Notes under the pieces: generated by a model
What the model was told of the DNA's origin: nothing
The model's database searches: none
The model's input: the letters and a program-made list of their open reading frames with translations, nothing else
In this document: piece after piece, positions 436 to 17,235 of the stretch
How the letters are laid out: each line of letters begins with the position of its first letter
Position numbering within the stretch: position 1 is the first letter of the stretch
Position numbers and translations under genes: made by a program
Assembly: GCA_022772675.1 (NCBI GenBank)
Contig: JALEZW010000013.1
Coordinates: 1-64,000, forward strand
Reading direction: 5' to 3'
DNA from: Agathobacter sp.
GTDB lineage: Bacteria > Bacillota > Clostridia > Lachnospirales > Lachnospiraceae
DNA: 64,000 nt

Positions 436-473
436 GCAAAATCCCTCCTTATTGAGCCTTTCGGCCGGTATTG

Positions 474-582
474 CACAGAGAACGGACGACCCAAGGAGGG
501 AGGGTTACTTACACCTTTATGGTGCGGCCGGACTACCTACCGGCTCTGCAGGTGGTGCCTGCGTTTGTGTTTTTATCTCTGT
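474..582 (-). ncRNA. yjdF-motif riboswitch candidate
   Basis: On the minus strand, just upstream of yjdF, a closing stem ACAGAGA/TCTCTGT (582-576 with 480-474) encloses several hairpins: GCAGG-CACCA-CCTGC, GCCGG-TAGGTAGT-CCGGC and CACC-ATAA-GGTG. A purine/pyrimidine-rich stretch TAACCCTCCCTCC follows. Position, size and multi-stem layout fit the yjdF RNA motif known from Firmicutes. The TAACCCTCCC stretch could pair with the GGAGGG ribosome site of yjdF, which would give translational control; that pairing is inference. No covariance model was run. Confidence 0.75.
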
Positions 583-918
583 ATTTTCATCTTAGCACAA
601 CTGTCGTTATTTTTCCACGGAAATAAAACAAAAAGGAGCATTTGAAACCGAACTTCCATGCTCCCAATCGTCAAACCGAAAAATGCCTGCCCGCAGGAAA
701 GGTCTTTCTCCGATTCTTCCTATGAAGTTTTCTGCAGAAAAGAGTTCTTTTCTGAAAATATTAATCCCCCTATGTGACTACGAACAATAAACACTACAGA
801 ATAATAAATAACGCAATAATCACAAACCGGATCCATAAACCTTACTCATTCCTTCATCTTAAAACCATATGATTTACAGACTCTCTCTGCACGGAAACGC
901 TGCCCTCTGCAGTAATGG
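583..918. other. intergenic stretch, no gene seen
   Basis: Between the yjdF leader and the 3' end of the next gene there are about 335 bp. All frames are short or interrupted. A small CTGCAG-centred inverted repeat near 726-756 (TTTTCTGCAGAAAA) is the only visible structure. The yjdF promoter presumably lies here, but I see no strong -35/-10 pair. Confidence 0.5.
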
Positions 919-11565: not shown

Positions 11566-12831
11566 TCAGGGCATAACCACCTGGTTCAGAATTCCAGTCA
11601 GATGTGCAATTACCACACCATAATTTGTCATGGGAATCTTCTGGGCTTTTGCCCGGTCAATCCTGGACAAAACATACTTTCGGTTAAACATACAGGCACC
11701 GCACTGGATAACCAGATCATATTTTGACAAATCTTCCGGAAAATCCGTCCCGCTCACATTCTCTATGGAGATTTTCTCTCCGAACCGTTTCCTGAGCATC
11801 CGGGGAATCTTAACCCTTCCGATATCCTCAGCCAGAGGTGCATGGGTGCAGCACTCCGCAATCAGAACATGGGACTGTTCCGTCAGGGAATCAATCTTTT
11901 TTGCCCCCTCCACGTAATAAGGCAGATCCCCCTTATAAGCAGCAAACAACACGGAAAAAGAAGTCAGCATGCTCTCCCCGGGCTTATGCTCATAGACATA
12001 ATCAAAGACCTGGGAGTCCGTAATAATAAGCTTCGGAGGCTTTGCAAGGGTTTTCAGTGCGGGAATCAGCTTGTCCGTTGTCACACTCATGATCAGACAT
12101 TTCTTATCCAGAAGTTCTCTTAATGTCTGCACCTGCGGTAAAATCAGTCTTCCTTTCGGTGCCTGGATATCCTGGGGCATCACCAGCATGACCAGATCAT
12201 TTTCCCCCACCAGATTTCCGGTAATGAGACGCTCACCAAAATTTTCCGGCATTTTCCGTGCCATTGCTTCCCGGACAGAATCCATTCCCTCGCCGGTTCT
12301 AGCACTTACGATCAGTGCCTCCTCACCGGTTTTACTCTTTAAGAATTCAAAAAGAGGTTTTGTTGGGGAAATATCTGCTTTGTTGATCACAAGAAGAACC
12401 GGGGTATTTTTCTCCCGGAAAAAATGATACCATTTGATTTCCTCTCTAAAAATCACTTCCCGGTCTGCCGGTATCATTTCTTTTGCAGTTCCAGCCTTCG
12501 CCCCCTCGCCTTCTGCTGTCCCATCCTCAGCAAATACAATCACTGCAAGGTCTGTTTTATCCGCAGCCAGCCTGGTACGTTCCACCCGCTGTTCCCCGAG
12601 AATGCTCTCGTCATCAAACCCCGCAGTATCGATAATCGTGCATGGGCCAAGGGGATGAATTTCCATGGCCTTATAAACCGGATCCGTGGTGGTTCCTGCC
12701 ACCTCCGCCACGATGGACACCTCCTGTCCGGTAAAAGCATTGATAAATGATGATTTTCCACTGTTGGTTTTTCCAAATACACCGATATGCAGCCGGTTTG
12801 CTGATGGTGTTTCATTTAAGGATCCACTCAT
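11566..12831 (-). CDS. hydF: [FeFe]-hydrogenase H-cluster maturation GTPase HydF
   Basis: A 421-residue scaffold protein that receives the diiron subcluster made by HydE and HydG and delivers it to apo-hydrogenase HydA. The N-terminal GTPase shows GVFGKTNSGKSS (P-loop), VAGTTTDPV (G2), DTAGFDD (G3) and NKAD (G4). The C-terminal third has the iron-sulfur ligands CTHAPLAEDIGR and CGACMFNRK. The residue before CGAC is glutamine, where the usual motif is often written HCxxC. It is last in the TM1266-hydE-hydG-hydF series, separated from hydG by a 70-bp hairpin repeat. HydA itself is not in the window. Confidence 0.95.
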   Translation of the reverse strand: MSGSLNETPSANRLHIGVFGKTNSGKSSFINAFTGQEVSIVAEVAGTTTDPVYKAMEIHPLGPCTIIDTAGFDDESILGEQRVERTRLAADKTDLAVIVFAEDGTAEGEGAKAGTAKEMIPADREVIFREEIKWYHFFREKNTPVLLVINKADISPTKPLFEFLKSKTGEEALIVSARTGEGMDSVREAMARKMPENFGERLITGNLVGENDLVMLVMPQDIQAPKGRLILPQVQTLRELLDKKCLIMSVTTDKLIPALKTLAKPPKLIITDSQVFDYVYEHKPGESMLTSFSVLFAAYKGDLPYYVEGAKKIDSLTEQSHVLIAECCTHAPLAEDIGRVKIPRMLRKRFGEKISIENVSGTDFPEDLSKYDLVIQCGACMFNRKYVLSRIDRAKAQKIPMTNYGVVIAHLTGILNQVVMP

Positions 12832-12860: not shown

Positions 12861-12930
12861 ATGATACAAGGGTCAAAAGGTCAGAGCTCGTTCCTGCTTG
12901 CAGGATAAAAGTTCTGACTTGTTGACCCGC
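12861..12930. repeat. 70-bp hairpin repeat, copy 1
   Basis: This sequence reads ATGATACAAGGGTCAAAAGG through TTGTTGACCCGC. It matches the reverse complement of 15980-16049 at 67 of 70 positions. It folds on itself (GGGTCAA..GGTCAGA with TCTGAC..TTGACCC), with an inner TCCTGC-TT-GCAGGA palindrome. It sits between hydG and hydF. Confidence 0.88.
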
Positions 12931-12971
12931 AGCATTCTTAATAGAAAGCCTTTCTCTTACCGTACGCGGAT

Positions 12972-14399
12972 TTAGAATCGGAAATCTCTCTTTCCCTCTG
13001 AAATATCATGGATATGTTCATAGGTTGTCTGCTTAACCTTTGGATTTGGAATGGTTTCAATTTCCCGCTCAATAAGCTCCATTCCAATTTTTCTGGTCTC
13101 AGGGCTGGCATAATCTTCCAAATATTCCTTTAAGGTCATAAGTGCATTGGGATGACAGCAGTTTAAGATCTGCATATTCTTGCATAGTGCCATAAAACGG
13201 TCACCGGTTCTGCCCTCTCTGTAGCAGGCAGTACAAAATGAGGGAATATACCCCAGCTTCATCAGCCAGTTTACCACTTCATCCAGGGTTCTCTGGTCGC
13301 TGACATCAAACTGCTCGGAAGTCTCACTGGCATTTTTCTCTGCCTCCGGATTCGCATAGCCGCCTACACTGGTCTTTGAGGCCCCACTGATCTGGGAGAC
13401 TCCAAGGGGAAGCACCTTTTCACGGACAGCCTGGCTCTCACGGGTTGAAATGATCATACCGGTATATGGCACTGAAATACGGATCAGTGCACAGATTTTT
13501 GCAAAAATGTCATCACTGATTCCATTATCGAATACGGATGGGTCAATATCATCTGCACGCTTGATTCTTGGCACACTGATGGTATGGGGCCCCACTCCAT
13601 GAACGGCCTCCAAATGCTCCGCATGCATAAGAATGCCTGCAAATTCATAGCGGTAGAGTTCCAGTCCAAAGAGTACGCCAAGTCCTACATCGTCAATACC
13701 ACCCTCCATTGCCCGGTCCATTGCCTCCGTATGGTAAGCATAATCATGCTTTGGTCCGGTGGGATGCAGCCTTTCATAGCTTTCTTTATTGTAGGTTTCC
13801 TGGAAAAGGACGTAGGTTCCGATCCCGGCATCTTTAAGCTTTCTGTAGTTTTCCACAGTGGTGGCTGCAATATTGACGTTGACCCGGCGGATTGCCCCGT
13901 TTTTATGTTTAATACTGTAAATCGTGTTGATGCACTCTAAAATGTACTCGATAGGATTGTTCACCGGATCTTCTCCCGCCTCAATTGCCAGACGTTTGTG
14001 TCCCATATCCTGCAGTGCCGTAACCTCTTTTACAATTTCCTCCTGGGTCAGCTTTTTCCTTGCAATATGCTTGTTTTTCATATGGTACGGACAGTACACA
14101 CAGCCGTTTACGCAATAATTGGACAAATACAGCGGCGCAAAAAGCACGATACGGTTTCCGTAGAAATCCTTTTTTATCTGCTGTGCCAGTTCAAAAACCT
14201 CCTGAATCCTGTCCTCATTCTCACAGGCTAACAGAACCGATGCCTCCCGGTGATTTAAGCCTTTTCGCTCTTTTGCCTTCTCAATAATGGCATCCACCAG
14301 TTCCATATTATCCTTGTTGGCATCCGCATATGCCAGTGTATCTTTAATTTCCTCGTCGGAGATAAACTCCTCCGCCTTCATTGATTTCACATCGTACAT
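12972..14399 (-). CDS. hydG: radical SAM tyrosine lyase HydG
   Basis: A 475-residue radical SAM enzyme that splits tyrosine to p-cresol and dehydroglycine and supplies CO and CN ligands to the H-cluster. The radical SAM cluster motif is CVNGCVYC (CX3CX2C) near residue 95. The C-terminal second cluster motif is CTACYREGRTGDR followed by the third cysteine in the NCCHPNAL region. Length is normal for HydG and distinguishes it from ThiH. An ATG with a GGAGGAAAAATCA-type site is used. It lies 38 bp after hydE in the same operon. Confidence 0.95.
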   Translation of the reverse strand: MYDVKSMKAEEFISDEEIKDTLAYADANKDNMELVDAIIEKAKERKGLNHREASVLLACENEDRIQEVFELAQQIKKDFYGNRIVLFAPLYLSNYCVNGCVYCPYHMKNKHIARKKLTQEEIVKEVTALQDMGHKRLAIEAGEDPVNNPIEYILECINTIYSIKHKNGAIRRVNVNIAATTVENYRKLKDAGIGTYVLFQETYNKESYERLHPTGPKHDYAYHTEAMDRAMEGGIDDVGLGVLFGLELYRYEFAGILMHAEHLEAVHGVGPHTISVPRIKRADDIDPSVFDNGISDDIFAKICALIRISVPYTGMIISTRESQAVREKVLPLGVSQISGASKTSVGGYANPEAEKNASETSEQFDVSDQRTLDEVVNWLMKLGYIPSFCTACYREGRTGDRFMALCKNMQILNCCHPNALMTLKEYLEDYASPETRKIGMELIEREIETIPNPKVKQTTYEHIHDISEGKRDFRF

Positions 14400-14437: not shown

Positions 14438-15478
14438 TCATGAAACATAGTCTCCCCTGCTTACCACCACTTCATATCCGATACTTTCCATCCGCCTCTG
14501 CATGCAGTACCGGCACTCTGCCGCCTCATCTCCGGTGCAGATTTTATTGTCATACAACAGATACTTATCTCTGACTGCCACCGGTGACAGATTGGGCATT
14601 ACCACGTTGGCACCGGCTTTAATGCCTTTTTCCCGTCCCAGGGGATGGATGGTTCCAAGGGCTGTGGTAGCCGGAAGCAGTACATGGGGATGTATCAGCC
14701 GGATGATGGAAAGAAGCCTCAGAGTATCTTCCATGGTTCCCGCTTTCTCATGCCCCAATGGTGTATCCTTCTGGGGAATAAAGGGACCGATTCCCACCAT
14801 CTGGGGCTTAAGCTCCTTAATAAACTGTAAATCTTCATATAAAGTATCCACTGTCTGCCCCGGGGAACCCACCATAAATCCACAGCCGGTCTGATAACCG
14901 ATTTCCTTCAAATCCCACAGACACTGTTTGCGGTTTACAAGGGACATTTCCGGCGGATGCAGGGCATGGTAGTGATCTTCATCCGCCGTTTCATGCCGGA
15001 GCAGATACCGGTCTGCCCCCGCATCAAAATAAGCCTGATAACTTTCCTTTGATTTTTCTCCGATTGAAAGGGTGATGGCACAATCCGGATAAGCCTGCCG
15101 GATTTTTTTAATGATTCCACAGAGCACTTCATCCGTATAAAAAGGGTCCTCTCCCCCCTGCAGCACAAAGGTCCTAAATCCCAGCTCATAGCCGTTTTTG
15201 CAGCAGGAAAGAATTTCCTCCTCCGTGAGACGATACCGGTCCGCCCTTCTGTTACTCCGGCGGATTCCGCAGTATCTGCAGTCATTTTTGCAGTAATTGG
15301 TAAACTCGATGAGTCCACGGATAAAAACCTGCTTTCCATAAATCTGATCCGCCCTCTCCCTTGCCCTTGCATGAAGATAATCCATCGTTTCCCTGTCCTC
15401 TGTGGTAAGCAGAAGTTTCAGACTGTCTTTATCGATATTCTGTTCTTTTTCTATTCTGTCAACGAGTTCCCTTAACAT
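14438..15478 (-). CDS. hydE: radical SAM H-cluster maturase HydE
   Basis: A 346-residue radical SAM protein of the biotin synthase-like family, required for building the dithiomethylamine-bridged diiron unit. The CX3CX2C motif is CKNDCRYC around residue 65, then the GGEDPFYTDE SAM-binding segment. The late EAAECRYCMQRR cysteines correspond to the auxiliary cluster region. The track start is a GTG at 15499; I prefer ATG 15478. Either way the 5' end overlaps the TM1266-like gene by 20-41 bp, implying translational coupling. Confidence 0.92.
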   Translation of the reverse strand: MLRELVDRIEKEQNIDKDSLKLLLTTEDRETMDYLHARARERADQIYGKQVFIRGLIEFTNYCKNDCRYCGIRRSNRRADRYRLTEEEILSCCKNGYELGFRTFVLQGGEDPFYTDEVLCGIIKKIRQAYPDCAITLSIGEKSKESYQAYFDAGADRYLLRHETADEDHYHALHPPEMSLVNRKQCLWDLKEIGYQTGCGFMVGSPGQTVDTLYEDLQFIKELKPQMVGIGPFIPQKDTPLGHEKAGTMEDTLRLLSIIRLIHPHVLLPATTALGTIHPLGREKGIKAGANVVMPNLSPVAVRDKYLLYDNKICTGDEAAECRYCMQRRMESIGYEVVVSRGDYVS

Positions 15479-15716
15479 TTGAATATACCGTCCTGGCACT
15501 CACGCCATCCAATCTTCCAATTTTTCCTGAAAGCGCATTGATTTCATCCTGGGAAGCATCCACTGCCACACTGATGATATTCACCCCCCGCTCCCGGTAG
15601 GGAATTCCCATACGCCCCACCACACAATCTCTGTATTCATGGAGTAACGCATTTAAAGGCTCTGCCGCCTCATCCTTCTCCACAATAATTCCGATTAATG
15701 CTATTCTTGTTTCCAT
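15459..15716 (-). CDS. TM1266-like iron-only hydrogenase system regulator
   Basis: An 85-residue ACT-like protein: METRIALIGIIVEKDEAAEP, then HEYRDCVVGRMGIPYRERGV, then IISVAVDASQDEINALSGKI. It matches the small TM1266-type proteins that are encoded with hydEFG in many Firmicutes and Thermotogae and are named putative iron-only hydrogenase regulators. They lack a recognisable DNA-binding domain, and their ligand is unknown. It is first in the operon and overlaps hydE. The start ATG follows GAGGAGAAG. Confidence 0.88.
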   Translation of the reverse strand: METRIALIGIIVEKDEAAEPLNALLHEYRDCVVGRMGIPYRERGVNIISVAVDASQDEINALSGKIGRLDGVSARTVYSNVKGTR

Positions 15717-15774
15717 CTTCTCCTCTTTTCCAATATGCCGATATGTTTCCCTTACGAATAGACTTCCTCGAACT

Positions 15775-15806
15775 AAAAAAGCTGCACCTCATGAAAGGTA
15801 CAGCTT
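15775..15806 (-). terminator. intrinsic terminator/attenuator upstream of TM1266-hydEGF
   Basis: On the minus strand, AGAAGCTGTACC-TTTCATGA-GGTGCAGCTTTTTT is a good terminator ending about 60 nt before the TM1266 start. A second hairpin, CCCTCCGGC-TGAA-GCCGGAAGGG (15812-15835), stands just before it. The only good promoter I see (15925-15954) is upstream of both, so this looks like a conditional terminator in the operon leader. Alternatively it only ends readthrough from purH. Confidence 0.65.
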
Positions 15807-15924
15807 CTAAACCCTTCCGGCTTCAGCCGGAGGGGAAAATACTATGATACATAATTCCTGTATCAAATGACTACTGTTCTTTCATGTCAACCATGATTTT
15901 CATGTCAGAGTGTCAGCTTATTCT

Positions 15925-15954
15925 ATTATATCAATGGTATGATATGAGGGTCAA
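15925..15954 (-). promoter_or_regulatory. promoter of hydrogenase maturation operon
   Basis: TTGACC, an 18-bp spacer, then TATAAT on the minus strand. The TTGACC -35 box is supplied by the short-form dispersed repeat at 15939-15973. Transcription would start near 15918, leaving a leader of about 200 nt. Confidence 0.7.
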
Positions 15955-15973
15955 AAGGTATTTTGCCCCTCAT
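15939..15973. repeat. truncated short-form palindromic repeat
   Basis: ATGATATGAGGGTCAAAAGG followed by TATTTTG matches the reverse complement of the 40-bp repeat at 1546-1585 over its first 27-28 bases. It then degenerates (CCCCTCAT). It abuts the 70-bp element at 15980. Confidence 0.7.
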
Positions 15974-15979
15974 GTGTGT

Positions 15980-16049
15980 GCGGGTCAACAAGTCAGAGCT
16001 CTTATCCTGCAAGCAGGAACGAGTTCTGACCTTTTGACCCTTGTATCAT
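15980..16049. repeat. 70-bp hairpin repeat, copy 2 (inverted)
   Basis: This is the inverted copy of 12861-12930, with 67 of 70 identities. It ends 5 bp before the purH stop codon region. The two copies therefore bracket TM1266-hydE-hydG in opposite orientation. Confidence 0.88.
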
Positions 16050-16053
16050 GGTA

Positions 16054-17235
16054 TTAGTGATGGAACAGACGGATTCCCGTAAAGCTCATGACCATTCCAT
16101 ATTTATTACATGTCTCAATGACATTGTCATCACGAACCGAACCGCCCGGCTCAGCCACATATTTCACACCACTCCTGTGAGCCCGCTCAATGTTATCTCC
16201 GAATGGGAAAAATGCATCAGAGCCTAATGCCACATCGGTATTCTTATCCAGCCATGCACGCTTTTCCTCCGGAGTAAATACCTCCGGTTTTACTTTGAAA
16301 ATATTCTGCCATGCGCCATCTGCAAGGACATCCATATAATCCTCCCCCATGTACAGATCAATCGCATTGTCACGGTCCGCACGCTTGATGCCGTCTACAA
16401 ACTGAAGTCCCAGCACCTGCGGAGACTGACGCAGCCACCAGTTATCTGCCTTGCTTCCTGCAAGACGGGTACAATGGATTCTGGACTGCTGGCCGGCACC
16501 GATACCGATTGCCTGTCCGCCCTTTACATAGCATACAGAGTTGGACTGGGTATACTTTAAGGTAATCATGGAAATAGCCAGATCAATCTTTGCCTGTTCT
16601 GTCAGTTCCTTGTTCTCTGTTACAATATTATCAAAGAATTTATCGTCTATATGCAGTTCATTTCTTCCCTGCTCAAAGGTGATACCAAATACATCCTTGC
16701 GCTCGATTGGTGCCGGTTCATAATCGGGATCAATCTGAATCACACAGTAATTGCCCTTTTTCTTCTGCTTTAAGATTTCAAGAGCTTCCTCCGTGTAGCC
16801 CGGTGCAATCACGCCATCCGATACCTCACGCTTAATCACCTTTGCCGTGGAAGCATCACAGACATCTGACAGAGAAATGAAATCTCCAAAGGAAGACATA
16901 CGGTCAGCTCCTCTTGCCCGGATATAGGCATTGGCAAGGGGTGTAAACTCAATATCCATATCATCCACCCAGTAAATTTTCTTCTCCACGTCAGAAAGTG
17001 GAAGTCCCACTGCTGCACCTGCCGGTGAAACATGCTTAAAAGAAGCTGCTGCCGGAAGTCCGGTTGCCTTCTTAAGCTCCTTTACCAGCTGCCATCCATT
17101 GAAAGCATCCAGAAAGTTTATGTATCCTGCCCTGCCGGAAAGTACCTGAATTGGCAGCTCTCCTCCCTTTTGCATATAAATTCTGGCGGGTTTCTGATTT
17201 GGGTTACAACCGTATTTTAATTCATATTCCTGCAT
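16054..17235 (-). CDS. purH: AICAR transformylase (PurH C-terminal domain, free-standing)
   Basis: A 393-residue phosphoribosylaminoimidazolecarboxamide formyltransferase, which transfers a formyl group from 10-formyl-THF to AICAR in the penultimate step of IMP synthesis. It contains the catalytic KHVSPAGAAVGLPL motif and later LGSDAFFPFGDNIERA and EPGGSVRDDNVI signatures. The N-terminal MGS-like IMP cyclohydrolase domain of normal PurH is absent. The missing step is supplied by the PurO-like gene directly upstream (90 bp), which explains the truncated architecture. The start ATG follows AAAAGGAGAATC. Confidence 0.93.
   Translation of the reverse strand: MQEYELKYGCNPNQKPARIYMQKGGELPIQVLSGRAGYINFLDAFNGWQLVKELKKATGLPAAASFKHVSPAGAAVGLPLSDVEKKIYWVDDMDIEFTPLANAYIRARGADRMSSFGDFISLSDVCDASTAKVIKREVSDGVIAPGYTEEALEILKQKKKGNYCVIQIDPDYEPAPIERKDVFGITFEQGRNELHIDDKFFDNIVTENKELTEQAKIDLAISMITLKYTQSNSVCYVKGGQAIGIGAGQQSRIHCTRLAGSKADNWWLRQSPQVLGLQFVDGIKRADRDNAIDLYMGEDYMDVLADGAWQNIFKVKPEVFTPEEKRAWLDKNTDVALGSDAFFPFGDNIERAHRSGVKYVAEPGGSVRDDNVIETCNKYGMVMSFTGIRLFHH

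Follow-up and report, generated by a model that had tools for sequence, protein, structure and literature searches.

The window, that is, the whole 64,000-nucleotide stretch of DNA that was analysed, contains a minus-strand operon in the order TM1266-hydE-hydG-hydF, preceded by a structured leader (Table 1). The maturation genes hydE, hydG and hydF serve to assemble an iron hydrogenase's active site. A sequence-only reading of this region had described a near-consensus promoter, two leader hairpins and a terminator about 60 nt ahead of TM1266, and had seen no second good promoter between terminator and gene; all of these features were recovered. The promoter (-35 TTGACC at 15954-15949, 18-nt spacer, -10 TATAAT at 15930-15925, minus strand) outscored every other promoter site across 14900-16700. 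The distance from the terminator U tract to the TM1266 ATG (15716) is 58 nt, and no promoter-like site was found on the minus strand of this interval. The terminator hairpin (15808-15777) was overlooked by a simple terminator scan, and its energy of -20.2 kcal/mol was taken from RNAfold. The 147 nt of leader that precede the U tract folded better than each of 200 dinucleotide shuffles (z = -4.97).

Table 1. Features of the TM1266-hydEGF locus, in window coordinates.
Feature	Position	Strand	Basis or remark
Promoter TTGACC-18-TATAAT, extended -10 (TG)	15925..15954	-	11/12 consensus matches
Conserved RNA operator (putative), CUGACAUGAAAAUCAUGGUUGACAUGAAAG	15879..15908	-	only R1 match in whole genome; covariation; no Rfam match
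Antiterminator 5' strand (15885-15879, 15877-15873)	15873..15885	-	overlaps operator 3' half
Spacer hairpin 1, UGAUAC/GUAUCA (DNA TGATAC/GTATCA)	15845..15865	-	not conserved; missing in relatives' leaders
Spacer hairpin 2, CCGGC-UGAA-GCCGG	15812..15835	-	not conserved; missing in relatives' leaders
Intrinsic terminator	15775..15808	-	hairpin 15808-15777 and U tract 15780-15775
TM1266-family regulator, 85 aa, proposed operator-binding protein	15459..15716	-	TIGR03959 E 6.8e-33; PF21699; predicted NikR C-domain fold
hydE	14438..15499	-	TIGR03956, 604.6 bits
hydG	12972..14399	-	TIGR03955, 935.3 bits
hydF	11566..12831	-	TIGR03918, 524.8 bits

Upstream regions of 80 TM1266-encoding loci were gathered and compared. 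Their leaders had almost no overall similarity, yet they had one common element, a 30-nt operator with the consensus C-UGA-NNNN-RAA-R, a variable hairpin, and Y-UGA-N'N'N'N'-RAA-G. A blastn search with the whole window leader returned repeat ends only, since the leader has diverged too far for its relatives to be found in this way. In the window, the operator half-sites are 15908-15897 and 15890-15879, and the helix pairs 15904-15901 with 15886-15883. Model R1 had a single match in the whole window genome, at 15908-15879 (E 3.6e-7). No Rfam family matched the window operator at gathering or relaxed thresholds, and none matched over the operator in the loci of eight relatives. The literature searched contained neither a mechanism for TM1266 nor an RNA motif before hyd genes; subscription papers and supplements lay outside this search, and an earlier listing without a name is possible. 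As judged from these sequence comparisons, the 30-nt element is a previously undescribed RNA operator.

The first alignment (23 sequences) showed double changes at all four helix pairs and at the capping pair. In a 51-sequence alignment, 98% of 306 pair cells were standard, double-change cells numbered 101 as against 29.5 in shuffles, and pairing collapsed to 23-48% when the helix register was slid. Both sets had been chosen partly by requiring pairing; the fair covariation test used a skeleton that fixed unpaired letters only and required no pairing. Of 16 skeleton matches within 400 nt 5' of TM1266, 15 had 4/4 pairs, as did 19 of 20 sense-strand matches elsewhere; a single match, with 2/4 pairs, was found on the antisense strands of these regions. 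Leaders of relatives without a shared covarying structure would have refuted the sequence-only reading; the covarying 4-bp helix across 51 sequences removes this objection. Some of the sequences that were scored had also served to train models R1 and R2, and the fold energies disregard the non-canonical pairs that the UGA/RAA loops are expected to contain.

The two half-sites agreed at 5.9 of 8 non-helix positions on average and were identical 12-mers in one case. Both strands of the helix have the form YU(G/A)A-N4-RAA-R; because they read alike, the folded operator has dyad symmetry. We rejected a DNA operator, since the half-sites repeat in direct orientation and have inverted centres that covary, the loops range from 6 to 52 nt, and matches fall on the sense strand only (45 of 45 in model searches of both strands of the 80 TM1266 loci). 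The two spacer hairpins were likewise rejected as the sensor, being unconserved spacer between operator and terminator. A promoter scoring at least 9, with its -10 ending 5-25 nt 5' of the operator, was present in 11 of 34 relatives' leaders (2.0 expected from shuffles). The operator is thus the first thing transcribed in many leaders.

The -35 hexamer of the window promoter falls in the terminal part of a dispersed Clostridiales-1-like repeat, and the near-consensus match of the hexamer is therefore partly due to repeat insertion. The sub-threshold match to Clostridiales-1 RNA (RF01699; 15940-16048, minus strand; 35.4 bits, gathering score 48) lies directly upstream of the leader and supplies the -35 region; the operator and leader themselves have no match. 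As a dispersed repeat, RF01699 is distinct from the operator and has no association with hyd genes. Dispersed palindromic repeats with ends ACCTTTTGACCCTCATATCAT were observed at 15940-16048 (minus), about 12869-12950 (minus) and near 1567 (plus), and more than 15 RF01699-like sub-threshold copies occur in the window genome. In this group RF01699 resembles a mobile repeat that is able to provide a -35 box from its end. Other RNAs noted were an azaaromatic (yjdF) riboswitch (RF01764) at window positions 466-586 (minus, 69.4 bits) and, at the TM1266 loci of two close relatives, ZMP/ZTP riboswitches (L031:287-364 and L034:202-297). The upstream neighbour in both relatives is an AICAR formyltransferase gene; no ZTP riboswitch was detected in the window copy.

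The sequence-only reading had found no strong antiterminator pairing by eye. This was wrong: in the minimum-free-energy fold of the window transcript before the terminator, a 12-bp antiterminator joins 15885-15879 to 15797-15791 and 15877-15873 to 15804-15800, and its 3' strand is the terminator 5' arm and loop. When the full terminator was included, the operator helix and terminator formed in place of the antiterminator. The arrangement recurs in relatives. An intrinsic terminator hairpin follows the operator in nearly all of 42 leaders examined, at a variable distance (spacer 7 to 86 nt), and the operator 3' half with the next ~14 nt pairs with the terminator 5' arm and loop. Duplexes between an operator and its own terminator averaged -13.1 kcal/mol, compared with -10.3 kcal/mol when terminators were swapped between leaders; none of 20,000 permutations reached the own-duplex mean. 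In transcripts folded up to the terminator loop, the antiterminator was present in 22 of 24 leaders. The earlier proposal that hydE/G/F expression is set by conditional termination, possibly through an uncharacterised RNA or the TM1266-like protein, thus gains comparative support, from both the covarying element and the mutually exclusive terminator and antiterminator pairings. That the window leader is a transcription attenuator is well supported; signal-dependent read-through is inferred. Since operator and antiterminator use the same nucleotides, whatever stabilises the operator should promote termination.

A second site was found at hydG. In many relatives an operator copy ends immediately 5' of the hydG Shine-Dalgarno sequence, e.g. 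CUGACCGGAAAG-AAGA-CUGACCGGAAAG, and overlaps the hydG ribosome-binding site. The window genome has no operator at its hydG ribosome-binding site. Binding at the hydG copy would block initiation, an effect of the same sign as termination in the leader.

Among 293 genomes of the class, all but one of the matches at E<=0.0015 lay before TM1266, hydE, hydF or hydG. A phylum-wide sample searched with model R2 gave a similar distribution; over the genome-wide searches, nearly all strong matches stood ahead of hyd maturation genes or within TM1266 operons that contain nifH/nifD-like or FecCD-transporter genes. Genomes of the Desulfovibrio class, in a second phylum, have the operator before TM1266-hydE and at hydG. 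Two further contexts were found. In rumen Lachnospiraceae (L056, L058, L059, L078, L081, L086 and L091) the operator lies between TM1266 and a nifH/nifD-like pair. In FecCD-transporter operons (L063, L094 and L239) it lies beside TM1266, before or after it; nifH-like is found further on in L063 and hydE further on in L094 (Loigolactobacillus rennini). These three loci, which share the operator, combine TM1266 with genes for a FecCD permease, an ABC ATPase and either a nifH-like product or HydE. Many of the genomes compared are metagenome-assembled.

Weak matches within coding sequences (G045, G612, G558, L133, L246, L247, L248 and L253) had no hyd context and were judged to be false positives; G612 and G558 are without TM1266. 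Loigolactobacillus rennini has a second, apparently orphan operator copy with its own terminator (L232:1501-1529), which adjoins an integrase gene in convergent orientation and is not followed by a hyd gene. In Roseburia inulinivorans, whose genome has a solitary TM1266, a weak operator-like match (E 0.0026; L231:1501) closely precedes the start of a lipoprotein/ABC transporter gene.

Co-occurrence of operator and TM1266 was determined in hydG-upstream loci of genomes with full-length hydG, using model R2 at E<=0.02. The operator was present in 29 of 51 loci from TM1266-positive genomes and in 3 of 29 loci from TM1266-negative genomes (Fisher p 4e-5). In the phylum sample, TM1266 is encoded by all 10 additional genomes whose operator stands in context. 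In G427 and G455 the operator is far from TM1266, yet TM1266 is encoded elsewhere in the genome. Strong operators occur in two TM1266-negative genomes, G050 and G205, both of which likely have assembly explanations: the G050 contig ends 296 nt after hydG and TM1266 of its congeners lies further downstream, and G205 is a 93% complete assembly. Labels of TM1266 absence depend in general on assembly completeness. Many TM1266 genomes have no detectable operator. TM1266 residues were tried as a discriminator of operator-bearing loci and discarded, as the differences between loci with and without the operator were weak and uncorrected. The operator recurs across many anaerobes, and its near-restriction to genomes that encode TM1266 suggests that TM1266 works by binding RNA, for which there are no binding data; the co-occurrence could also reflect shared ancestry.

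The window TM1266 is a clear member of its family (TIGR03959/PF21699, "iron-only hydrogenase system putative regulator"), scoring 112.3 bits against a curated cut-off of 60.8; the family name gives no mechanism. Its predicted structure (pLDDT 95) was compared by Foldseek, which returned T. maritima TM1266 (2NZC) and then NikR C-domains (probability 1.00, E about 1e-5); a sequence profile matched the NikR sensor domain at E 0.074. The crystal entry 2NZC contains four chains. No DNA-binding (ribbon-helix-helix) domain was found in the 85 residues, where the only domain detected was TM1266-like. According to the structural model, the protein carries the NikR C-terminal sensor (ACT-like) fold; this concerns the fold only, and metal binding is inferred. 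In FecCD operons, TM1266-like domains are apparently fused to an ABC ATPase (396-aa and 359-aa frames). The apparent fusions lie at L094:3795-4886 (Loigolactobacillus rennini) and at G385:C1:95236-95457. They are reminiscent of ligand-sensing domains on importers and consistent with a ligand-sensing role for the TM1266-like domain.

The operator, its covariation and dyad symmetry, the switch pairing, the gene contexts and the co-occurrence with TM1266 were all established by computation. We consider it probable that the leader is an attenuator acting through the new 30-nt operator, bound most likely by the TM1266 protein encoded downstream; binding, direction of regulation and signal are inferred. 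The main rival, which we regard as unlikely but cannot dismiss, is that a new class of riboswitch uses the operator as its aptamer for a small ligand, for example an H-cluster precursor, iron or another cofactor, with attenuator and hydG site operating without any protein. Its small conserved internal loops, and an architecture that combines an attenuator with a ribosome-binding-site copy, would be typical of riboswitches, and the hyd maturases, nifH/nifD-like genes and FecCD importer could share a metabolite. Against an aptamer, however, the operator is nearly absent from hydG-bearing genomes that lack TM1266, and dyad-symmetric, loop-length-tolerant sites repeated within one operon fit a dimeric or tetrameric protein better. 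There was also no match to any Rfam riboswitch.

A different protein, such as HydF or a general RNA-binding protein, might bind the operator, with TM1266 only modulating it or being co-regulated. Operators that stand before hydE with TM1266 on another contig indicate that adjacency is not required, which leaves room for this idea; TM1266, however, is the recurring neighbour of the operator even in the nifH-like and FecCD contexts, and we hold another binder to be improbable. Least credible of all is an ordinary 5' untranslated region whose terminator merely stops upstream transcription, with no regulation. Intergenic intrinsic terminators are indeed common and the -35 box owes part of its sequence to a dispersed repeat, but covariation, matched antiterminators and the same operator at hydG starts speak against such an explanation.

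In the TM1266-dependent attenuator that we favour, half-sites YUGA-N4-RAAR at the 5' end of the transcript would pair through a 4-bp helix, with UGA/RAA internal loops of the tandem-GA type on either side and a variable hairpin as cap. When the operator is free, its 3' half would pair with the terminator 5' arm, and the resulting antiterminator would allow transcription of hydE/G/F. When the operator is held by its binder, the antiterminator could not form, the terminator would fold and transcription would stop. At hydG, the bound copy would block translation, so that at either site the bound state would be the repressing one; this direction of regulation is deduced from structure. TM1266 would accordingly be an RNA-binding autorepressor, and its sensor fold of the NikR type without a DNA-binding domain makes it probable that it represses its own operon upon a metal or cofactor signal. 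By inference, such an autorepressor accounts for the symmetry, the co-occurrence, the context swaps and the missing DNA-binding domain. In its full form we only lean towards the proposal, namely that TM1266 is a NikR-type sensor without DNA-binding domain that acts as a repressor by gripping an RNA operator of two-fold symmetry and so sets the supply of [FeFe]-hydrogenase maturases, or elsewhere of a nitrogenase-like reductase and FecCD importer, upon a metal or cofactor signal.

If this is correct, the TM1266 family, named as a putative regulator without a DNA-binding domain or known target, gains a concrete RNA target, and the operator would define a regulatory RNA class for biohydrogen maturation in gut and rumen anaerobes. 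Through the shared operator, hydrogenase maturation is also linked to nitrogenase-like and FecCD-transporter operons that are as yet uncharacterised, which gives a hint of the chemistry of these operons.

NikR, the nickel-responsive repressor, has tetrameric C-domain sensors. TM1266 has the C-domain fold in common with it, but lacks the ribbon-helix-helix domain, and its proposed target is RNA. Protein-controlled attenuators with a co-acting ribosome-binding-site target are known from the PyrR, TRAP and L10 leaders. From general knowledge, without alignment, these leaders resemble the present one in having mutually exclusive RNA structures that end in an intrinsic terminator, and in that a single factor encoded by the operon could have several target sites within it. 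They differ from it in RNA sequence, structure, regulated genes and regulator fold, the present element being a dyad-symmetric helix between UGA/RAA loops. Attenuators as such are a known kind of control, within which the operator and the proposed type of regulator are new.
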